A stretch of DNA of 64,000 nucleotides, taken from NCBI RefSeq assembly GCF_005155025.1, contig NZ_CP039731.1, positions 3,596,001 through 3,660,000 on the forward strand, read 5' to 3'. The notes under the pieces are model-generated. The model was not told where the DNA came from. It did no database searches and saw only the letters and a program-made list of their open reading frames with translations. Within the stretch, counting starts at the first letter, position 1, and each line of letters begins with the position of its first letter. Positions 23,345 to 33,375 of this stretch are shown here, one piece after another. Both the position numbers and the translations under genes were made by a program. Source of the DNA: Aquitalea aquatilis. Its GTDB lineage: Bacteria > Pseudomonadota > Gammaproteobacteria > Burkholderiales > Chromobacteriaceae.

Positions 23345-24424
23345 TCAGGCACGCAGGCCCGCCAGCATCACCGTGAGTTTTTCCAGCGACATCACCTCGT
23401 CCACACCACCGTGCTGGATGGCCTCGTTGGGCATGCCGAATACCACGCAGGATTCCTCATCCTGTGCCAGGGTACGGGCACCGTTATCATGCATCTCGCG
23501 CATGCCGCGCGCGCCATCGTCGCCCATGCCGGTCATGATGACGCCAACCGCATTCTTGCCGGCGCTGACCGCTACCGAGCGGAACAGCACATCCACCGAA
23601 GGGCGATGGCGCGACACCAGCGGGCCGTCCTTTACTTCGGCCTGGTACTGCGCACCATTGCGCTTGATCAGCAAATGCTTGCCCCCGGGCGCAATCAGCA
23701 CCGTACCGGGCAGCAGGCGGTCACCATTGCAGGCTTCACGAATCTCCACCTTGGCCAGCCGGTTCAGCCGCTCGGCAAACGAAGTGGTGAATTTTTCCGG
23801 CATGTGCTGCACCACGGCGATACCCGGACAGGTGGCCGGCAGTCGTGGCAGCATGTACTCCAGCGCCTGAGTACCACCGGTCGAGGTGCCGATGGCGATG
23901 ATTTTTTCCGTAGTACGAAACATGGCCCGGCCGGATGGCGCCTCCAGCACGGCATCGGCGGTCAGCTTGGGCGCTGGGCTGGCGGATGCCGCTGCGCCAT
24001 GCAGGATGCGCTTGACCGCGCCCATCCTGGCTCCGGCCGCGGCACGCACTTGCTGGATCAGCTCTTGCGCGCTGCCTTGCAGGAATGACTTCAGATTGAG
24101 TGCAGGCTTGGTGATGATGGCCACCGCGCCGGCAGCCATCGCTTCCAGCGTGATGTGCGCGCCTTTTTCGGTCAGCGAGGAACAAATGATGACCGGAGTG
24201 GGATGATCCGCCATGATCTGCCGCAGAAAGGTCAGGCCGTCCATGCGTGGCATTTCGATATCCAGCACGATCACATCCGGCCATTGCTGCTTCATGCGCT
24301 GCATGGCAAACAGCGGGTCGGGCGCGGCACCCAGCACCTGGATATCCGGCGCGGCGGCCAGCATCTGGCTGAGCACTTCCCGCACCACGGCGGAATCATC
24401 GACAATCAGCACCCGAATCGGCAT
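23345..24424 (-). CDS. cheB: Chemotaxis response regulator protein-glutamate methylesterase
   Basis: Removes methyl groups from MCP glutamates when phosphorylated by CheA, giving adaptation. 359 residues. Receiver: [20 protein letters not shown] with phospho-acceptor D55 ([13 protein letters not shown]). The C-terminal methylesterase triad is in [12 protein letters not shown] (Ser), [18 protein letters not shown] (His) and [15 protein letters not shown] (Asp). ATG at 24424 has AAAGGTGA upstream; 11 earlier codons are rejected. Last gene of the leftward chemosensory operon, 4 nt after cheR. CheB here acts with no cheD gene nearby. Confidence 0.96.
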
Positions 24425-24428
24425 GTTC

Positions 24429-25289
24429 TCACCTTTGTGTATGGCTGACCGGCACATGGCGGTAACGCGAAGGCTGCTCTTGCTGCAAGGGCAGGTCCAG
24501 ATTGCGCAAGGACTCCGAATGGCCGATCAGCAGATAGCCGCCGGGGCGGATCTTGCTACACAGCTGGCTGAGCACCTGCTGCTTGGTCTCGCCATCGAAG
24601 TAGATCAGGACATTGCGCAGCAACACCACATCGAACTGCGCCTGACGAAAGTCTTCGCAATGCAGCAGGTTGATATTGGAAAAATCCACCTTGCGCGCCA
24701 GTTCCGGCAGCACCCTGACCTTGCCGCTGTATTCGTCGATGCCGCGCAGCAAGTATTTGCGCCACATGGCTGGCGGTGTTCTGCGCACTCTGTCGTGCAG
24801 GTAGACGCCACGCCGGGCAAATGCCGTGACCTGGGTATTGATGTCACTGGCGTACACCTGCCAGTTGCCATGCAGGCCCAGGCTATCCGCCAGCGTCATG
24901 GCGATACTGTACGGCTCCTCCCCGGTCGAGCAGGCAGCAGACCAGATACGGATCGCACCACGGCGCTGGCCATGCAGCTCGCGCACATGGTGCTGCAGCC
25001 AGTCAAAGTGCTGCGGCTCGCGAAAAAAATAGGTTTCATTGGTAGAGAGCAGGTTGATCGCCCTTTGCTTCTCCACCCGGCCCTCCGCTCCCTGCAGCAA
25101 TTGCCAGTAGGCCATGAAACTATCCAGCTGCAGCTGGCGGATGCGTTTGGACAGGCGCGACTGCACCAGGGCCAGCTTGCCCGGCGGCAGGTCGATGCCC
25201 GCCTCCTGATAGATGAAACGACGAAAGCGACTGAACTCCTGATCGCTCAGCACCGGATCGCGCCCCAATAGCGGTCCTGGGCCAAACAC
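24429..25289 (-). CDS. cheR: Chemotaxis protein methyltransferase
   Basis: SAM-dependent methyltransferase that methylates MCP glutamates. 286 residues: the N-terminal helical domain ([20 protein letters not shown]) and a Rossmann domain with the SAM motif [17 protein letters not shown], then YASDINT and LLRNVLIYF. Translation starts with GTG at 25289, sharing one base with the cheW stop (TAGTG), so it is coupled to cheW. Neither MCP of this operon ends in the NWETF-type pentapeptide that tethers some CheR proteins. Confidence 0.96.
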
Positions 25290-25831
25290 TAGCTGACCTC
25301 GGCTTCATCGCTGAAATACTGCAGGCTGGCCGACTCGGCCATGGCACTCAGCTCGGACACCGACAAGGCCTGCTGCACATTCAGCAAAATGGCAAAGCGC
25401 TCGTTGATGGTGGCAATCCCCTCGATGAAGTCGCCACGGATGCTGGCACCAAAGCTGGGCGAGGGGTCGATGTCGCGGCGCGGGATTTCCAGCACTTCGC
25501 ACACGGCATCCAGCAGGATACCGACCTCGCTATAGCCGCTTTCCAGCCCAGGCAGCGACAGAATGGCCACACAGGTGGAGGGCTTGAGCTCGGTCATGCC
25601 CCGGCCAAAACGGATGGAAAGATCAATCACCGGCACCACCGAGCCACGCAGATTGATGATGCCGCGCACAAAGCCGGGCATCATCGGCACCTGGGTGATG
25701 CCGTCAAACTCAATGATCTCGCGGATGAAGTTGATCTCAATCCCAAACAGATCCTCACCGAGAATAAAGGTCACGCAGTGAAACTTGCTGTCGGTGGCGG
25801 CGCCGGCCACAGGTTCAAGACGTTCTTTCAT
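25289..25831 (-). CDS. cheW: Chemotaxis coupling protein CheW
   Basis: Adaptor linking MCP tips to CheA in the signalling array. 180 residues with an SH3-like CheW domain over residues ~15-160: CVTFILGEDLFGIEINFIRE, then PMMPGFVRGIINLRGSVVPV, the conserved Arg and NLRG core. ATG at 25831 has AGGAG upstream. It lies 10 nt after the MCP stop and overlaps cheR by one base. The C-terminal ~20 residues (SASLQYFSDEAEVS) are variable. Confidence 0.95.
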   Translation of the reverse strand: MKERLEPVAGAATDSKFHCVTFILGEDLFGIEINFIREIIEFDGITQVPMMPGFVRGIINLRGSVVPVIDLSIRFGRGMTELKPSTCVAILSLPGLESGYSEVGILLDAVCEVLEIPRRDIDPSPSFGASIRGDFIEGIATINERFAILLNVQQALSVSELSAMAESASLQYFSDEAEVS

Positions 25832-25841
25832 GGTCTTGCTC

Positions 25842-27503
25842 CTAGTACTTGGTGAATTTGTCGTCGTCTATCTCGTCGTCGAAATCGTCATCACCGTGCG
25901 ACTGCGGTGGCGGAGCACTGGCCTTGCGCGTGCTCCCTGCGCCATGGCCAAGCTTGCGCATGCTGCTGCGACCACCGCGCAGCTTGAACTGCTGCATCAG
26001 CTCTTGCAGCTGCATGGCGGCGGAGCTGAGTTCTTCCGAGGTGGAGCTGAGTTCTTCTGCCGACGACGCCGACGACTGCATGCCGCTGCTGATCTGGGTC
26101 ACTGCGCTGTTGATCTGGTCGATACCGGTACGCTGCTCGCGCGAGGCGGCGGAGATTTCCTGCACCAGGGTCGCGGTCTGGTCGATGCCCGGCAGCATCT
26201 CCTGCAGCAGCACACCAGCACGTTCGGCCACGCCCACCGAGCGCCCGGCCAGATCACCGATTTCCTTGGCGGCCACTTGCGAGCGCTCGGCCAGCTTGCG
26301 CACCTCCACCGCCACGGTGGCAAAACCCTTGCCATGCTCGCCGGCACGGGCCGCTTCGATAGCAGCGTTGATGGCCAGCAGATCGGTCTTGTTGGCGATA
26401 TCGTTGATGACGGTAATGCGCGAGGCGATTTCCTTCATGGCATGCACCATGTCACCCACGGCACGGCCGCCATCGGTGGCGCTGCTGGCCGATTTGGCGG
26501 CAATGCCTTCGGTGACGCGGGCATTATCGGCATTCTGGGTAACCGTAGCGGCCATTTCCTCGACCGAGGCACTGGTTTCCTCAACACTGGCCGCCAGTTC
26601 CGACGAAGTTTGTGCCAGCGAATTGGCGGTGGCCGACACCTGTTCCGAGGCCGAACCGATCGATTCGGACATGGAGCTAACCTCCAACAGCGTGTCGGAC
26701 AGGCGGTGTGCCATGCCCTTGATGGAAAACAGCAGGCTGGAATCGTCATTGCTGCGCAGGCGGATGGGCACCGTCAGATCACCCTGGGCCACCCGCGACA
26801 CCACCTGCATGGCATAGGAAGGATCACCACCCAGCTGGCTGAGGATGCTGCGAATCACCAGCAGCGCCACCACGATGCTCACCACGATGGCCAGCAGCAC
26901 GATGACCAGGATCATTTCCAGGGTATGCCCGCTGGTGGCCTTGCTTTCATCCATCTCCGCACTGGCCTGCTTGAGATTGGCATCGATCAGCTCGGTCATG
27001 ATGCTGTTGATGCTGTCGAAGGTAGGCCGGGCCTTTTCCGACATGATCTTCAATGCCAGCTTGTTGTTTTCGCCATTACCGTTATCGGTGTAGGACAGCT
27101 TCTTGACTTCAGCCGCATAGCCCTCATAGGCCGCCCAGGCGGTATCAAAACGCCGCAGTGCGTCTACTTCTTGCGGGCTGAGTGCCGTTTTACGGTAGTG
27201 ATCCAGCGCGCCATTCATTTCCTTTTCAAACTTGCCGATATTGATGTCCACCTGGTCCATGACCTTGGTGTCGCTCTCGGCGATATAGCGGTAGAGCGAA
27301 CGATTACAGGCCATGGCATAACGCGCGGCATGGCCCAGATCCCTTACCGGTATCAGCTCGCGCTCATACATATTGACGGTTAGGCCAGTCATCTTGTCGG
27401 TAGAGGAGTAAGCCAGCACTCCCAGCAATAACAGAAATGCCAACACCAGCGAAAAGGCAATGGTCAGCTTGTTTCTAACCTGCAGTGTGTGAAACCAGTT
27501 CAT
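25842..27503 (-). CDS. Methyl-accepting chemotaxis protein with 4HB-type periplasmic sensor
   Basis: Transmembrane chemoreceptor, 553 residues. TM1 is at ~10-32, a helical periplasmic ligand-binding domain (four-helix-bundle type) covers ~33-195, TM2 ~196-218, then HAMP, and a long methyl-accepting coiled coil. The signalling tip is [20 protein letters not shown] followed by [20 protein letters not shown]. Glu/Gln/Ser/Ala heptads suggest methylation sites. The tail is acidic ([16 protein letters not shown]) with no CheR-binding pentapeptide. ATG at 27503 has a strong GGAGG. Ligand unknown. Sits between cheA and cheW. Confidence 0.93.
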
Positions 27504-27542: not shown

Positions 27543-29690
27543 TTAGTTCTTATCGCTCACCAGCGCTTCGGCACGCTGGCGGATGGTACGACGCTCACGC
27601 CGGCAGGCGTGCTGGATCAACTGGGGAATGTCCAGCACCAGCGCCGGCTTGCCATTGCCGAGGATGGTGGAGCCACTGATTCCCCGCAGTGACTTGAAAA
27701 TCTCGCCCAGCGGCTTGATGACTGCTTGTACTTCGCCCATCAGCTTGTCCACCACGATGCCGGCACGATGCTCGCCGTAATGGACAATGACGATAAACTC
27801 CGGCCCGCTGGCCGGCGGCAGGCCGAACAGCTCGCGTAGCGAGACAAAGGGCAGCCAGTCGCCACGCAGGTTTACCTGGCGGGTGTGCTGGTTCATGGCC
27901 TCCTGCGGCATGTCGACGCATTCGATCATCATGTCCAGCGGCATCACCAGCGCCGAGTCGTTTACCTCCACCCGGAAGCCATCGATGATGGCCAGCGTCA
28001 GCGGCAGCCGCAGGCGGAAGGTGGAGCCGACGCCCGGCGTGGACTGGATTTCGATTTCGCCGCGCAGCGCCTCGATATTGCGTTTCACCACATCCATGCC
28101 GACTCCGCGACCGGACAGGTCGCTCACCGCGTCGGCAGTAGAAAAGCCCGGCAGGAAAATCAGCTGCAGGATGTCCTGGTCGCTCAGCGGCCGGCCGTCG
28201 GCCAGCAAGCCACGCTCGGTAGCCTTGGCCAGCACCTTGTCGCGATTGATGCCGCCACCATCGTCACTGACTTCCACCACCACCGAACCGGCATCGTGAT
28301 AGGCATTGAGCGTGATGGTGCCCACTTCCGGCTTGCCGGCGGCACGCCGCTTGTCCGCCTGTTCCAGCCCGTGATCAACGGCATTGCGCACGATGTGCAT
28401 CAGCGGGTCGGTCAGCTTTTCCACCATGGACTTGTCGATTTCGGTGTCAGCCCCCTTGATCTCCAGCTGGATGGCCTTGTCCAGTTGCCGCGAGACTTCA
28501 CGCACCATGCGCGGGAAGCGGCTGAACACCTCATCCACCGGCACCATGCGCAGGGTCAGCGCGTCATCGCGAATGCTTTCCACCAGGGTATTGATGATGG
28601 CCACCGACTCCAGCAGCTCGGCATCGCCACGGCTTTGCGCAATCAGCTTGGTGCCGGACGAGGCAATCACCAGCTCGCCCACCCGGTTGATCAGCCGGTC
28701 CAGCTTGCTGGCCTCGATGCGGATGTACTGGTTTTCACTGCGCGGCACGGCCTTGGCCGCCGCGCTGGCACTGGCTACCGGCTTGTCTTCATCCACCACG
28801 GCGGGCTGAGTCTCCAGCGGCACATCCTCGCGGACGCGCAGGGCCTCCTCCGGCGTCAGCGCCGCACGTTGCAGCCAGCGCTGCAACTGCTCGGGCTCAT
28901 CCAGCCGTTGCCACGCGGCGCGGTAATCTGCCAGCGGCGCATGCGGCGGCAGGATGCAGATCAGGCTTTCTTCCTCGATGAATTCAAAGGTGCCGGCGAT
29001 CTTGTCCAGGCTTTCGTCGGAATCCAGCGCCAGGTCCAGGCCGATGAAGCACTCGGTCGGGTCCAGTTCTTCCAGCTGGGGCGTGGCACGCCAGACCAGC
29101 TCGATGCAGCGCACCTCGCCCAGCTGCCCCAGATAGCGCAAGAAGGACAAGGGATCAAAACCATGGCGAAAGGTGTCGGGATGAAAACGCAGCGACAGCT
29201 GCCAGTACGGGCTCTGGCTTTGCTCTGCCGTCGCCGGCAGCTCGGCGGCGACCGGACTGGTCACTGCAAGGACCGGAGCCGTCACCCCGGCAGTGGAGGA
29301 TGACTGCTGGTAGGCACTGAGCCACTTGAGCAGTGCTGCGCCTTCCGGCAGGTCCTGCACCGCCTGCTCCTCATTGCCGTTGGCGGCCTCCAGCAGCAGG
29401 CGCAGGTGGTCGTTGCAGTTGAGCAGCAGATTGACCAGGTCATCACTGAGCTCGACCTCGCCCGAGCGCAGGCGCTCCAGCACGTTCTCCACCACATGAG
29501 CGAAGCGCACCAGCGCGTCCAGCCCGAAAATACCGGCCGAACCCTTGATGGTATGGGCAGTACGAAACAGCAGATTGAAAGTTTCCGCATTGGGCGGATA
29601 GATGTCCGGGTGCAGCAGCGCATTTTCCAGCGCCGTGCACAATTCCTGGGACTCTTCAAAGAAGATGGCCTTGGCCTTGCTCAGATCCAT
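27543..29690 (-). CDS. cheA: Chemotaxis histidine kinase CheA
   Basis: Soluble histidine kinase of the array, 715 residues. The P1 Hpt domain has phospho-His at H46 in FRTAHTIKGSAGIFG. The P2-like region (~165-290, with FRHGFDPLSFLRYLGQLGEV) is of the type found in alternative, non-E. coli CheA proteins. Then come the P3 dimerisation domain, the P4 ATPase (N box HIVRNAVDHGLE, G boxes VSDDGGGINRD and GRGVGMDVVK) and a C-terminal CheW-like P5. ATG at 29690 has AGAGGA and lies 2 nt after the STAS gene. The frame is open for 90 more codons, but that overlaps STAS and is rejected. Confidence 0.95.
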   Translation of the reverse strand: MDLSKAKAIFFEESQELCTALENALLHPDIYPPNAETFNLLFRTAHTIKGSAGIFGLDALVRFAHVVENVLERLRSGEVELSDDLVNLLLNCNDHLRLLLEAANGNEEQAVQDLPEGAALLKWLSAYQQSSSTAGVTAPVLAVTSPVAAELPATAEQSQSPYWQLSLRFHPDTFRHGFDPLSFLRYLGQLGEVRCIELVWRATPQLEELDPTECFIGLDLALDSDESLDKIAGTFEFIEEESLICILPPHAPLADYRAAWQRLDEPEQLQRWLQRAALTPEEALRVREDVPLETQPAVVDEDKPVASASAAAKAVPRSENQYIRIEASKLDRLINRVGELVIASSGTKLIAQSRGDAELLESVAIINTLVESIRDDALTLRMVPVDEVFSRFPRMVREVSRQLDKAIQLEIKGADTEIDKSMVEKLTDPLMHIVRNAVDHGLEQADKRRAAGKPEVGTITLNAYHDAGSVVVEVSDDGGGINRDKVLAKATERGLLADGRPLSDQDILQLIFLPGFSTADAVSDLSGRGVGMDVVKRNIEALRGEIEIQSTPGVGSTFRLRLPLTLAIIDGFRVEVNDSALVMPLDMMIECVDMPQEAMNQHTRQVNLRGDWLPFVSLRELFGLPPASGPEFIVIVHYGEHRAGIVVDKLMGEVQAVIKPLGEIFKSLRGISGSTILGNGKPALVLDIPQLIQHACRRERRTIRQRAEALVSDKN

Positions 29691-29692
29691 TG

Positions 29693-29992
29693 CTAATCCT
29701 CTGCGTGTGGCGGCAACGACATGCCGATCAACAGCCCTATTTCGTCCAGCACCGGACTGCTGCCAAACAGCCGCAACACGTGCCCGGCTGCGGCGGATTT
29801 GGCCTGCAGCAACAGCAATAGCTGCAGACCGCAGCCATCCAGTTCGCTCAGTGCGGATAAGTCCAGCTGCACCCGTGGGTACTGCAGCAAGCCGAGCAAG
29901 GCATCCTGCACTTCGTGCATGGTGTAGATCGTCAGCTCGCCGCTGAAGGCGGCCTGACACACATCCTGCTCATGACTGAGGGTCAGCGACAT
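29693..29992 (-). CDS. STAS-domain protein of the chemosensory operon
   Basis: Small cytoplasmic STAS-fold protein of 99 residues, the fold of anti-anti-sigma factors such as SpoIIAA. Visible are FSGELTIYTMHEVQDALLGL and VQLDLSALSELDGCGLQLLL. The position normally occupied by the phosphorylatable Ser reads DGCGLQ, where the family usually has D-S-x-G/A; here a Cys stands close to that point. It lies between cheY and cheA, 2 nt before cheA, with its own GAGAGG. Such STAS genes accompany some alternative che clusters; their role is unclear, possibly binding CheA or the array. Confidence 0.85.
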   Translation of the reverse strand: MSLTLSHEQDVCQAAFSGELTIYTMHEVQDALLGLLQYPRVQLDLSALSELDGCGLQLLLLLQAKSAAAGHVLRLFGSSPVLDEIGLLIGMSLPPHAED

Positions 29993-30003: not shown

Positions 30004-30375
30004 TCAGGGCTGAATCAGCTTGGCTACCGCATCCAGCAGCTTCACCGGATCAAACGGCTTGACCACCCACGCCTTGGCACCGGCTTCGCGCCCCTGGTTT
30101 TTCTTGTCGTCACTGCCCTCGGTAGTCAGCATGATGACGGGCAGAAAACGGGTGGCCGGGCCTTCGCGCAAGCGCTTGAGCAAGGTGATGCCATCCATGC
30201 CGGGCATGTTGACATCGGAAATCACCAGATTGACGCGGGTACCTTGCAGCTTGTACAGGGCATCATTGCCGTCCAAGGCTTCGATCACGTTATAACCGGC
30301 GCCTTTGAGCGCGATACTGACGGTCGCCCTGATGCTGGCGGAATCGTCCACAATCAATACGGATTTGCTGGCCAT
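30004..30375 (-). CDS. cheY: CheY-family response regulator
   Basis: Single receiver domain of 123 residues. Acidic pair D10-D11 ([14 protein letters not shown]), phospho-acceptor D54 in LVISDVNMPGMDG, Thr in MLTTEGSDDKK, and Lys in WVVKPFDPVKLL. No output domain, so it acts by protein contact, for example with the flagellar motor or another effector. GGGAGAG precedes the ATG at 30375. The gene is 60 nt downstream of the MCP-like gene and 11 nt upstream of STAS. It is the likely target of the CheZ-like motif described for the upstream protein. Confidence 0.94.
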   Translation of the reverse strand: MASKSVLIVDDSASIRATVSIALKGAGYNVIEALDGNDALYKLQGTRVNLVISDVNMPGMDGITLLKRLREGPATRFLPVIMLTTEGSDDKKNQGREAGAKAWVVKPFDPVKLLDAVAKLIQP

Positions 30376-30435: not shown

Positions 30436-31593
30436 TTAGAAGAAATCCACATCCCCATTGGACGCCGCCACGGCCTGCTGACTGCCACCCTTGTGCAGTG
30501 CCGCCTGTTCCAGCGTGGTATAGGTGGATTCAAGACGCCGCAGCCATTCGGCTGGGCTGGCGACCGGCAGGCTCTGCCCCTGGCGCACGGCATCGCGCAA
30601 TGCCTGCACATGGCCATGCATCAACTGCAGGTCGTTGCCGACGTGCTGCAAGATCTGGCACACCCGGTCCTGATACTGCATGGCAATCAGCGAGGTATTC
30701 AGATCCCCCTCCACCTGCTTGCCGTGCAATTGCATGTCGTGATTGATGGTGGCCAACTGGCCGGCCGCCTGGCTGAAATCCTGCACCGAGGCATCCAGCA
30801 GCTGCAGGGCGCTTTTGCCTTTTTGCACGTCTTGCGCACCCAGCTCCAGCGTGCTGCTGCGGGTGCGCTCCAGCGCGGCATTGATGATTTCCACCTTTTC
30901 GGTCATGCGCAGCCCGGTTTGCGCCGACAGCAGCGACAACTTGCGCACCTCGTCGGCCACCACGGCAAAACCGCGACCGAATTCACCGACCCGTGCGGCT
31001 TCGATACTGGCGTTCAAGGCCAGCAGATTGGTCTGGCTGGAAATCTTGCCGACATCCTCGGCCATGGTGCGCAGTTCAGCAGAAAAGGTGGTCAGGCTGG
31101 CGACTTCATCGATGATGATCTGGCGGTGGCTGACGATCTCGGCCAGCACCTGGGCAATTTCCTGGCTGCGCTGGCGTGCTGCATCCACCAACCCGCCCAG
31201 GCTGTCGCTACCCGCCTCACCGCTTGCCGACCGTGAAGAGTCAATCGTCGCGTGCAGGCCGCCGGCAATATCGGCCAGGCTCTGCGCCACCTGGTTGCCA
31301 CCCTGGGTGGACTGCGCGATGACCAATTGCAGATTGCCGCCCCACTTCTGGATCACCTGCTCGATCAGGTTGAGCTGGCCATCCAGTTCATGCGGTGCGC
31401 TGGTGTTTTCCGGCGAGGGTTCAGACGTGGTATTTGCCGGCTCGGCAGGCTTGGCGCTGACCAGCAACAGCAGGGTGGCGCTGACCAGAAACGAGAAAAT
31501 CACCAGCAGCCAGAGCGGCAGAGCATGGTTTCCCAGCCAGACCAGGACATTGGCGGACGCCAAGATGGCCAGACTCAATCCCCGTGACACCAT
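30436..31593 (-). CDS. Membrane-anchored MCP-like protein with CheZ-type DxxxQ motif (possible receptor-phosphatase fusion)
   Basis: 385 residues, first gene of the chemosensory operon. Two adjacent membrane helices (~5-22 and ~26-47) leave almost no periplasmic part, so sensing would be cytoplasmic or membrane-based; there is no HAMP. Residues ~180-220 form a canonical MCP tip ([18 protein letters not shown], then [13 protein letters not shown]) able to bind CheA/CheW. C-terminal to it, residues 305-315 read [11 protein letters not shown]. Aligned with the E. coli CheZ active-site helix (FQDLTGQVI), it keeps the catalytic Asp and Gln spacing (D309, Q313). The last residues, NGDVDFF, resemble the acidic/aromatic CheY-binding tail of CheZ. 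MCP family membership is firm; phosphatase function is inference. ATG at 31593 has GGGGGTG. Confidence 0.8.
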
Positions 31594-31711: not shown

Positions 31712-32100
31712 AGATTTTGCCAAACCGGCCTTGTTAGCTGCTGTTGTTCAATAAAGTTCAGCATCCCCAGGCTGTCAATGTGGATTTGAAATTAATTCAT
31801 TATTTTACATATTTCATTAACAGTAATATTGATGGTGCTTTTAGCTGCAAGCCGCCGATAGCGATGTCCGGCAGATTGCGCAGCAGGTAACACCGCAAGG
31901 TCATCTTGCTATTCTTGACCAACACGCGCGAGGCAGAACACCAGCAGCGACCGCCAGCCCACTGACGGAGAGTGCGGAAAAATCCGCTGTGCGGCAAAAG
32001 TCAACCGCCGCCCGGCCATCCGCCCGACAAGCCACAACACCCCTGCGCGGCCCTTCACAAAAAGCGCCATTGCGCGTACCATCCCGCCTCGCTTTTCGGG
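31712..32100. other. Intergenic region between the chemosensory operon and the Hsp70-like gene
   Basis: About 390 nt without a supported gene. The stretch 31740-31850 is AT-rich (for example TTCATTATTTTACATATTTCATT) and the remainder has normal GC. It must contain the divergent promoter of the Hsp70-like gene; I cannot pick a convincing -35/-10 pair. Confidence 0.4.
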
Positions 32101-33375
32101 ATGGCATCAATGACTACTAGCAGCGCTGCGCAGGCATGCGGCATCGACTTCGGCACCTCCAATTCCACGGTTGGCTGGCTGCGCCCTGGCGCAGACACCC
32201 TGATTCCGCTGGAAGACGGCAAGATCACCCTGCCCTCGGTTGTCTTTTTCAATTACGAAGAGGACCACTCGGTATTTGGCCGCCGCGCCCTGCTGGAATA
32301 CACCGAAGGCTATGAAGGGCGCCTGATGCGCTCGCTGAAAAGCCTGCTGGGCAGTAGCCTGATCGACAGCCAGACCGAGGTACAAGGCCGCGCCCTGCCG
32401 TTTCGCCATCTGCTCACCCTGTTCATCCAGGAGGTCAAGCAGCGCGCCGACCGTGCCGCTGGCCGCCCCTTCGAACAAGTGGTGCTGGGCCGCCCGGTGT
32501 TCTTTGTCGATGACAACCCCAAGGCCGACGCGCTGGCGGAAGAAACCCTGGCGCAGATTGCCCGCCAGGTGGGCTTCAAGGAGATTTCCTTCCAGTTCGA
32601 ACCACTGGCAGCCGCCTTTGACTACGAATCCTCCATTACCCGCGAAGAGCTGGTGCTGATCGTCGATATCGGCGGCGGCACTTCGGACTTTTCGCTGGTG
32701 CGCCTGTCGCCGGAAAGACGTGAGCTGGACGACCGCCGCGCGGACATCCTGGCCACCGGCGGCGTGCATATCGGCGGTACCGACTTCGACAAGCAGCTGA
32801 GCCTGCACGGCGTGATGCCGCTGTTCGGCTTCAAGAGCCGCCTGCGCAACAATGCCGAAATGCCCTCGGCGCAATACTTCAACCTCGCCACCTGGCACAC
32901 CATCAACTTTGCCTACACCCGCAAGGCGTGGATGGATTTGCAGGATATTCATCGCGACGTGGAAGACCCGCGTGCGTTCGACCGCCTGTTCAAGCTGATT
33001 CAGGAACGCGCCGGCCACTGGCTGGCCATGCAGGTGGAGGAAGCCAAGATCGCCCTCTCCAGCCAGGAGCGCCATCAGCTGCAACTGGAACTAATCGAAG
33101 ACGGACTGTATGCCGAACTGCTGCGCCAACAGTTCAACCAGACCATTGACGGCATGCTGGGGCAGATCGGCAAAACCATTGGCAGCCTGCTGGCCGATGC
33201 CGGCATCAGCGCCAGCCAGATCGACACCGTGTTCTTTACCGGCGGCTCCAGCGGCGTCCCCGCGCTGCGTCAGTGCGTACAGCAACTGCTGCCCAATGCT
33301 CACCACGTGGAGGGCAATCTGTTTGGCAGCATTGGCAGCGGCCTGGCCATCGAAGCGAAAAAACGCTACGGCTGA
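32101..33375 (+). CDS. yegD: YegD-type short Hsp70-like protein
   Basis: Actin/Hsp70-fold ATPase of 424 residues. Phosphate 1 loop GIDFGTSNSTVGW is at residue ~14, phosphate 2 is LIVDIGGGTSDFSLVRL near 190, GGVHIGGTDFDKQLS follows, and the adenosine motif is FFTGGSSGVPALRQ near 385. It ends just after the nucleotide-binding domain; the DnaK substrate-binding domain and lid are absent, as in E. coli YegD. Function in the cell is poorly defined. I start at ATG 32101; ATG 32110 is also possible. It stands alone, with a terminator behind it. Confidence 0.85.
   Translation: MASMTTSSAAQACGIDFGTSNSTVGWLRPGADTLIPLEDGKITLPSVVFFNYEEDHSVFGRRALLEYTEGYEGRLMRSLKSLLGSSLIDSQTEVQGRALPFRHLLTLFIQEVKQRADRAAGRPFEQVVLGRPVFFVDDNPKADALAEETLAQIARQVGFKEISFQFEPLAAAFDYESSITREELVLIVDIGGGTSDFSLVRLSPERRELDDRRADILATGGVHIGGTDFDKQLSLHGVMPLFGFKSRLRNNAEMPSAQYFNLATWHTINFAYTRKAWMDLQDIHRDVEDPRAFDRLFKLIQERAGHWLAMQVEEAKIALSSQERHQLQLELIEDGLYAELLRQQFNQTIDGMLGQIGKTIGSLLADAGISASQIDTVFFTGGSSGVPALRQCVQQLLPNAHHVEGNLFGSIGSGLAIEAKKRYG

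Follow-up and report, generated by a model that had tools for sequence, protein, structure and literature searches.

The window, a stretch of 64,000 nucleotides from Aquitalea aquatilis (contig NZ_CP039731.1), contains a compact chemosensory operon that begins with a gene for a receptor-like protein, here named MCPZ, and continues with cheY, a gene for a STAS-domain protein, cheA, the gene of an ordinary methyl-accepting chemotaxis protein (MCP), cheW, cheR and cheB (Table 1). An Hsp70-like gene (31972-33375) lies upstream of the operon in divergent orientation. The gene order read in the window confirms an earlier, sequence-only reading that had placed the MCPZ gene first, and the domain scan bears out its claim that the operon encodes a CheY but no CheZ, with no match to CheX or CheC anywhere in the host genome at E up to 0.01. 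The host genome (4.36 Mb, one contig) does possess two true cheZ genes, both outside the MCPZ operon; each adjoins another cheY.

Table 1. Features of the MCPZ operon (window coordinates)
Feature	Position	Strand	Basis
MCPZ, receptor-like protein, 385 aa	30436..31593	-	ORF, sequence, Pfam
MCPZ residues 3-45, N-terminal hydrophobic helix or hairpin (predicted)	31459..31587	-	hydropathy; helix 3-45 in a low-confidence model
MCPZ residues 187-217, MCP signaling tip	30943..31035	-	sequence; Pfam MCPsignal
MCPZ CheZ signature, A304-x-x-Y307-Q308-D309-x-x-x-Q313	30655..30684	-	sequence; conservation
MCPZ residues 379-385, C-terminal peptide NGDVDFF	30439..30459	-	sequence; conservation
cheY, presumed substrate of MCPZ	30004..30375	-	Pfam Response_reg
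STAS-domain protein of the operon	29693..29992	-	domain scan
cheA (start placed at MDLSKAK, position approximate)	27543..29690	-	ORF, domain scan
Ordinary MCP; 4HB sensor domain, pentapeptide-like C-terminus (KFTKY)	25842..27503	-	domain scan, sequence
cheW	25289..25831	-	domain scan
cheR	24429..25289	-	domain scan
cheB	23345..24457	-	domain scan

The MCPZ frame is open over its whole length from an ATG, and a longer, TTG-started frame of 413 residues also exists. The protein matches Pfam MCPsignal at 80.8 bits (cut-off 34.6) and has a signaling domain with the canonical MCP tip, as had been noted from the sequence. No sensor domain was detected: at E up to 10, the Pfam matches are MCPsignal and sub-threshold CheZ and LapA_dom. 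Hydropathy windows above 1.6 begin at residues 15-20 and 23-32, which points to one clear membrane segment preceded by a marginal one; these windows do not establish the two-helix membrane anchor originally proposed. An AlphaFold2 model built from an alignment of two sequences is poor (pLDDT 53.3, pTM 0.30), and its secondary structure agrees with a hairpin and a tail helix. Aeromonas plasmids of 6.8-8.0 kb (H1-H3) match the MCP tip over 94 bases, and in two of them the annotation places a methyl-accepting chemotaxis protein at the match.

Among the 45 MCP matches listed in the host genome (E up to 1e-10), MCPZ and a paralog score lowest. The paralog (P0003; L198:8073-9245; G000:C1 4297072 on) contains LQFQDMVSQ, ends GSIDLF and heads a second che cluster, with a cheY of its own next in line and then cheA, cheW, the gene of an MCP ending EWEEF, cheR and cheB; by virtue of that MCP, the cluster resembles an F7 cluster.

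The CheZ-type signature and the C-terminal tail

The signature AXXF(Y)Q-DXXXQ is reported to be widely conserved in CheZ, with a logo drawn from >1800 CheZ sequences (PMC7750401). The full signature occurs in MCPZ as A304-M-Q-Y-Q-D309-R-V-C-Q313, and the protein ends in GDVDFF, so that both segments singled out at the outset, YQDRVCQIL at residues 307-315 and the terminal NGDVDFF, are present as described. In 20,000 shuffles of MCPZ, DxxxQ appeared in 80%, [FY]QDxxxQ in 0.3% and AXX[FY]QDxxxQ in 0.025%; among the other host MCPs examined, namely the best-scoring 30 of the 45 matches, DxxxQ is present in 29 and [FY]QDxxxQ in none. Therefore, DxxxQ alone is no evidence of a relationship to CheZ.

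With the whole of MCPZ as the query and a limit of E 1e-20, 25 of 61 genomes of the host's family gave matches, and a scan of genome contigs returned two loci, one of them a close relative. A profile of the C-terminal half matched 109 of 369 genomes of the class (E up to 1e-5) and 94 of 398 genomes of the phylum (1e-6), tallies that include true CheZ and short proteins. Of the protein family to which MCPZ belongs, 93 loci with 92 distinct sequences were read (L003 and L009 are identical); a distant relative, L004, was left out of all counts, and L015, which ends at a contig end, out of the tail counts. The signature Asp is kept in 93 of the 93 loci, whereas the Gln is kept in 90 and replaced by Pro in three. 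These counts lean upwards because the later relatives were gathered with a profile containing the motif; the set from the host's family came from the whole-protein search. The CheZ-type active-site motif that had been read in MCPZ is real and conserved throughout a family.

In an alignment of 20 C-terminal halves, the invariant positions are just Gln306, Gln308, Asp309 and the last Phe. The strict AXX[FY]QDxxxQ occurs in 26 of 92 members, and looser forms are commoner ([FY]QDxxxQ, 73; Q[FY]xDxxxQ, 89); as the sequences stand, the signature Ala and the Gln before the Asp vary, the Asp never does, and the presumed catalytic Gln hardly. The distance from the tip Asn to the signature Asp is 120 residues in all 29 loci counted early (of 32 then collected; L003, L004 and L015 were left out) and in 81 of 81 with a recognized tip; the tip pattern failed in 12 of the 93 loci, in which the signature was read separately. 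Furthermore, according to column counts over the aligned helix, neither the Asp nor the Gln seems to fall on a hydrophobic position shared with the helix of CheZ, which would support a phosphatase reading of MCPZ; a tree from the same alignment was badly rooted and was set aside.

Of 92 members, 76 have a membrane-like segment somewhere in the initial 150 residues of the frame; the 16 that lack it include 12 from other classes of the phylum. Twelve members from other classes (L215, L217-L227), nine of which have 331-357 residues, contain LQFEDMV[TS]Q, end in G[DE][IV]ELF and lack a membrane-like segment in the first 150 residues; cheY was not found within their short flanks. The three Gln-to-Pro members (L026, L033 and L034, all of one genus, with LQFQDLVSP) keep the tail, and the response-regulator genes in their vicinity do not resemble cheY (31-34 bits), which makes these members natural test cases of a dead enzyme. 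These sole losses of the Gln among the 93 loci are found in members that do not adjoin cheY.

All 92 untruncated members end in Phe, as do 35 of 35 CheZ; in the members, the residue before it is Phe (56/92) or Leu, Met or Ile (36/92). Of the CheZ-like tail and terminal FF claimed for MCPZ, the conserved extreme C-terminus and the last Phe hold up across the homologs; the penultimate Phe does so in the 56 only, and in sequence the tail resembles that of CheZ in no more than a last Phe that follows acidic and aliphatic residues (DVDFF in MCPZ, DDLLSSLGF in CheZ). The CheR-binding pentapeptide x-[HFYW]-xx-[HFYW] fits none of the 92 members, whereas the other MCP of the operon fits it (KFTKY).

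Comparison of profiles delimits the similarity to CheZ. Pfam CheZ is the second match on MCPZ, with 15 bits and E=0.024 over residues 245-383, and does not reach the cut-off of 30.7 bits. Relatives gave E-values of 2.9e-5 and 9.5e-5, five of nine relatives scanned had no CheZ match, and the best receptor-type member reached 27.8 bits (E 3.4e-6 in a one-genome search), so that none of the receptor-type members seen exceeds the cut-off. MCPZ was accordingly rejected as a true CheZ, because it scores below the family cut-off and has a receptor tip and a membrane segment. Nevertheless, the receptor-type profile of the C-terminal half finds 34 of 35 true CheZ (best 30.6 bits), with controls of 0/700 shuffled and 1/35 reversed sequences (15.4 bits), whereas an ordinary-MCP profile of 28 sequences finds 6/35, at most at 14.1 bits; this profile supersedes a one-sequence MCP control (1/35 at 15.2 bits, HHalign 13.8%). 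The HHalign probability against CheZ is 85.8% for the C-terminal half of the family and 1.4% for the ordinary-MCP profile. In the reverse direction, a profile of CheZ detects 27/54 members, 0/30 MCPs, 0/54 reversed members and 0/9 of the short proteins described below. When the 15 motif residues were masked, 5/35 CheZ were found (best 16.7 bits), compared with 2/35 reversed sequences at 12.8 bits, and the HHalign probability was 7%. Nearly all of the CheZ-type signal of the family profile thus resides in the 15-residue motif, which is shared. Homology to CheZ beyond the motif was considered and found not significant under masking, and common descent of the whole bundle with CheZ is unsupported, because the masked similarity is near the level of reversed sequences.

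Of 20 short frames fetched among the weak matches of the receptor-type profile, 11 are undoubted CheZ (for example, one with LMAQDFQDLTSQ and the end DEVDDLLSSLGF), and the other nine are short proteins (L076, L077, L080, L083 and L090-L094) of 162-234 residues, measured as open frames, without an MCP tip or a membrane-like segment. All nine contain DxxxQ and a final Phe, and some have a YTxEE-like element. None of the eight scanned has a Pfam or NCBIfam match over the cut-off; one short protein matches CheZ at E=0.016. Their neighborhoods (L179-L186) include che genes in five of the eight read, with the short gene directly upstream of cheY in one and flanked, in two, by cheR and the gene of an MCP ending EWEEF; in the other three, no che cluster was seen. 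Because the short proteins keep motif and tail without the receptor body, these two elements look like the working part, and the receptor body seems dispensable as long as they stay together.

Linkage to cheY and co-occurrence with cheZ

The family gene is tied to cheY. In 62 of the 93 loci, a cheY ends 300-520 bases after the family gene. When the cheY of the window was the sole query, 117 of 369 genomes of the class gave matches. Of the 30 best loci, 26 have a family gene directly upstream of cheY; all 26 upstream genes encode Q[FY]QDxxxQ and a final Phe. No family gene adjoins cheY in the remaining four of the 30. In the genomes of L260 and L261, a receptor or short form is present on the same contig, ~7-10 kb from cheY, and around the cheY of L238 and L262 neither form occurs within the stretch read. 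A STAS match, which in the window corresponds to the gene between cheY and cheA, was recorded in 25 of the 30 loci found with the cheY query. The order family gene-cheY-STAS-cheA is also found on plasmids of Aeromonas sp. BC14 (L228) and Pseudomonas sp. HR96 (L229), neither of which has a CheZ match over the cut-off; on the HR96 plasmid, the chemosensory operon extends from the receptor-like gene to cheR, cheD and cheB.

It had been supposed that MCPZ stands in for a missing cheZ, with co-variation between the DxxxQ motif and the loss of cheZ named as a check, and the supposition is not supported. The host has two cheZ genes, and CheZ is present in 83 of the 93 genomes of the class with a family match (E up to 1e-10, short proteins included), as opposed to 61 of the 276 others (Fisher p 1.5e-31), a count of genomes and not of independent events; co-variation of the motif with the loss of cheZ was therefore rejected in favor of positive co-occurrence. 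Ten genomes with weak CheZ matches were scored as CheZ-less, among them three of the 93 (G085, G225 and G334) that pass the Pfam CheZ cut-off at 48-53 bits and would raise the count to 86/93. The family goes with an additional CheY rather than acting as a replacement of CheZ.

The CheY of the window has D10, D11, D54, T84 and K106, and the catalytic residues are all present in the 67 partner CheYs compared. At position 92 (E. coli numbering), 54 of these 67 have Asp or Glu, whereas all 35 CheYs that are partners of CheZ have Lys or Arg; furthermore, Trp replaces Tyr106 in 67 of 67 family partners. In CheZ, the Asp forms a salt bridge to Lys92 of CheY. Because the partner CheYs of the family differ at this position, the exact contact between CheZ and CheY cannot be copied. 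A swap of the salt bridge between position 92 and the residue after Asp309, which is often Arg, was considered and rejected for lack of association (44/13/10/0, p=0.19), and no compensating change or pairwise co-variation between the family and CheY position 92 was found. As a guess, Lys at the CheY equivalents of 94 (49/67) and 95 (58/67) may provide a substitute contact. More than any other observation, the difference at position 92 speaks against the CheZ mechanism being copied unchanged.

A candidate CheY-P phosphatase of receptor shape

Taken together, the conservation of the signature and the tail and the linkage to cheY suggest that MCPZ is probably a membrane-anchored, receptor-shaped CheY-P phosphatase for the additional CheY encoded just downstream. 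Under this proposal, two MCPZ chains would pair as in chemoreceptors and the tip would join the CheA/CheW array, while the tail, from about residue 338 to 385, would catch CheY-P. Asp309 and Gln313, predicted to face outward on the descending helix in its part nearer the membrane, could then place a water molecule for attack on the phosphoryl group, as do the Asp and Gln of CheZ. Termination of the CheY signal would thus take place at the membrane, within the array or next to it, and might be subject to control by receptors.

That helix and tail merely bind CheY or CheY-P at the array, to hold or deliver it as a dock or buffer without catalysis, is unlikely but deserves to be weighed first, given that binding alone would account for the linkage to cheY and the conserved tail, that the partner CheYs do not have the basic residue 92 used by CheZ, and that the three members without the Gln still keep the tail; however, a dock offers no reason to keep both the Asp and the Gln of CheZ in 90 of 93 loci and in nine of nine short relatives. 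Somewhat less probable still is an ordinary receptor or array adaptor, in which the LQFQD helix would be a packing motif of the membrane-proximal bundle and its likeness to CheZ convergent. The lack of significant similarity to CheZ outside the 15 residues is as expected under this explanation, and P. aeruginosa CttP/McpA, a probable relative, is listed, in the part of the literature available to us, as acting in chemotaxis to chloroethylenes; yet [FY]QDxxxQ is absent from all 30 other MCPs examined, and both the motif and the final Phe are found in short proteins that have no MCP tip. It is very improbable that the tail tethers CheR, CheB or CheD instead of CheY, since, although the C-terminal peptides of other receptors, similar in position and length, tether CheR, none of the 92 members fits the pentapeptide, the other MCP of the operon does, and in McpA a valine is stated to keep all four CheR homologs from interacting with the receptor (PMC7184735, accessible text).

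With a phosphatase as the preferred reading of MCPZ, a broader proposal can be advanced tentatively, as one that could well prove wrong: CheZ, the McpA/VC1394-like receptors and the short proteins would form one CheY-P phosphatase superfamily, in the receptor form of which the enzyme would be grafted onto a chemoreceptor and provide the off-switch of F7- and F9-type systems. As far as the accessible text of Ortega 2020 (PMC7184735) goes, the McpA-like receptors of F7 systems have a membrane region, are assigned to no heptad class and are dispensable for the F7 array, and their C-terminus is strikingly conserved, lacks the pentapeptide and has an "unclear biological role"; in P. aeruginosa McpA, Val is at the second position of the C-terminal end. 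The same text confines cheZ to F6 systems in stage 1 and 2 organisms. From the portions available of two further papers, VC1394 of the F9 cluster has the same topology as the McpA-like receptors, both being called 24H (PMC7534058), and V. cholerae clusters I and III have cheY but no cheZ (PMC11940527). A phosphatase role for McpA-like receptors or VC1394 is not proposed in the accessible parts of the open-access literature searched, supplements aside.

If the off-switch for CheY is built into a receptor-shaped protein in these systems, as it may be, then a "receptor" of many Proteobacteria ends a signal instead of starting one, and receptor-to-pathway assignments that include such proteins need revision. 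Should the superfamily proposal be true as well, array signaling could control both the kinase and the removal of the phosphoryl group, and the missing off-switch of F7-type and F9-type systems would be supplied. A single assay would address two questions, namely the role of the McpA-like C-terminus and the switching-off of CheY in clusters without cheZ, the latter being a question because, on our reading of the accessible text of PMC7184735, cheZ is found in F6 clusters only.

Among known systems, MCPZ resembles CheZ (PF04344) in the AXXF(Y)Q-DXXXQ signature on a long predicted helix, a free C-terminus ending in Phe and a gene adjoining cheY, but CheZ has neither the MCP tip nor the membrane segment of MCPZ and differs from it in the tail sequence and in positions 92 and 106 of the partner CheY. 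With ordinary chemoreceptors (PF00015), it shares a signaling domain with tip, far above the cut-off, but it lacks the sensor domain and the CheR pentapeptide and adds the CheZ signature. A further parallel is offered by the McpA-like receptors (PA0180/CttP, VCA1088) and VC1394, which, in the published descriptions accessible to us, likewise combine an MCP signaling domain with a membrane region and are encoded among che genes. MCPZ shows the McpA-like features of a membrane segment, an MCP signaling domain and a C-terminus that lacks the pentapeptide and has Val second among its final five residues, and the family members L210, L212 and L213 end in GEVELF. Moreover, the gene order of the window operon fits F7/F9-type clusters, a likeness that does not imply a class assignment. 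Thus, MCPZ and the McpA-like receptors are probably related, and MCPZ would be set beside PA0180, VCA1088 and VC1394 on the strength of their published descriptions.
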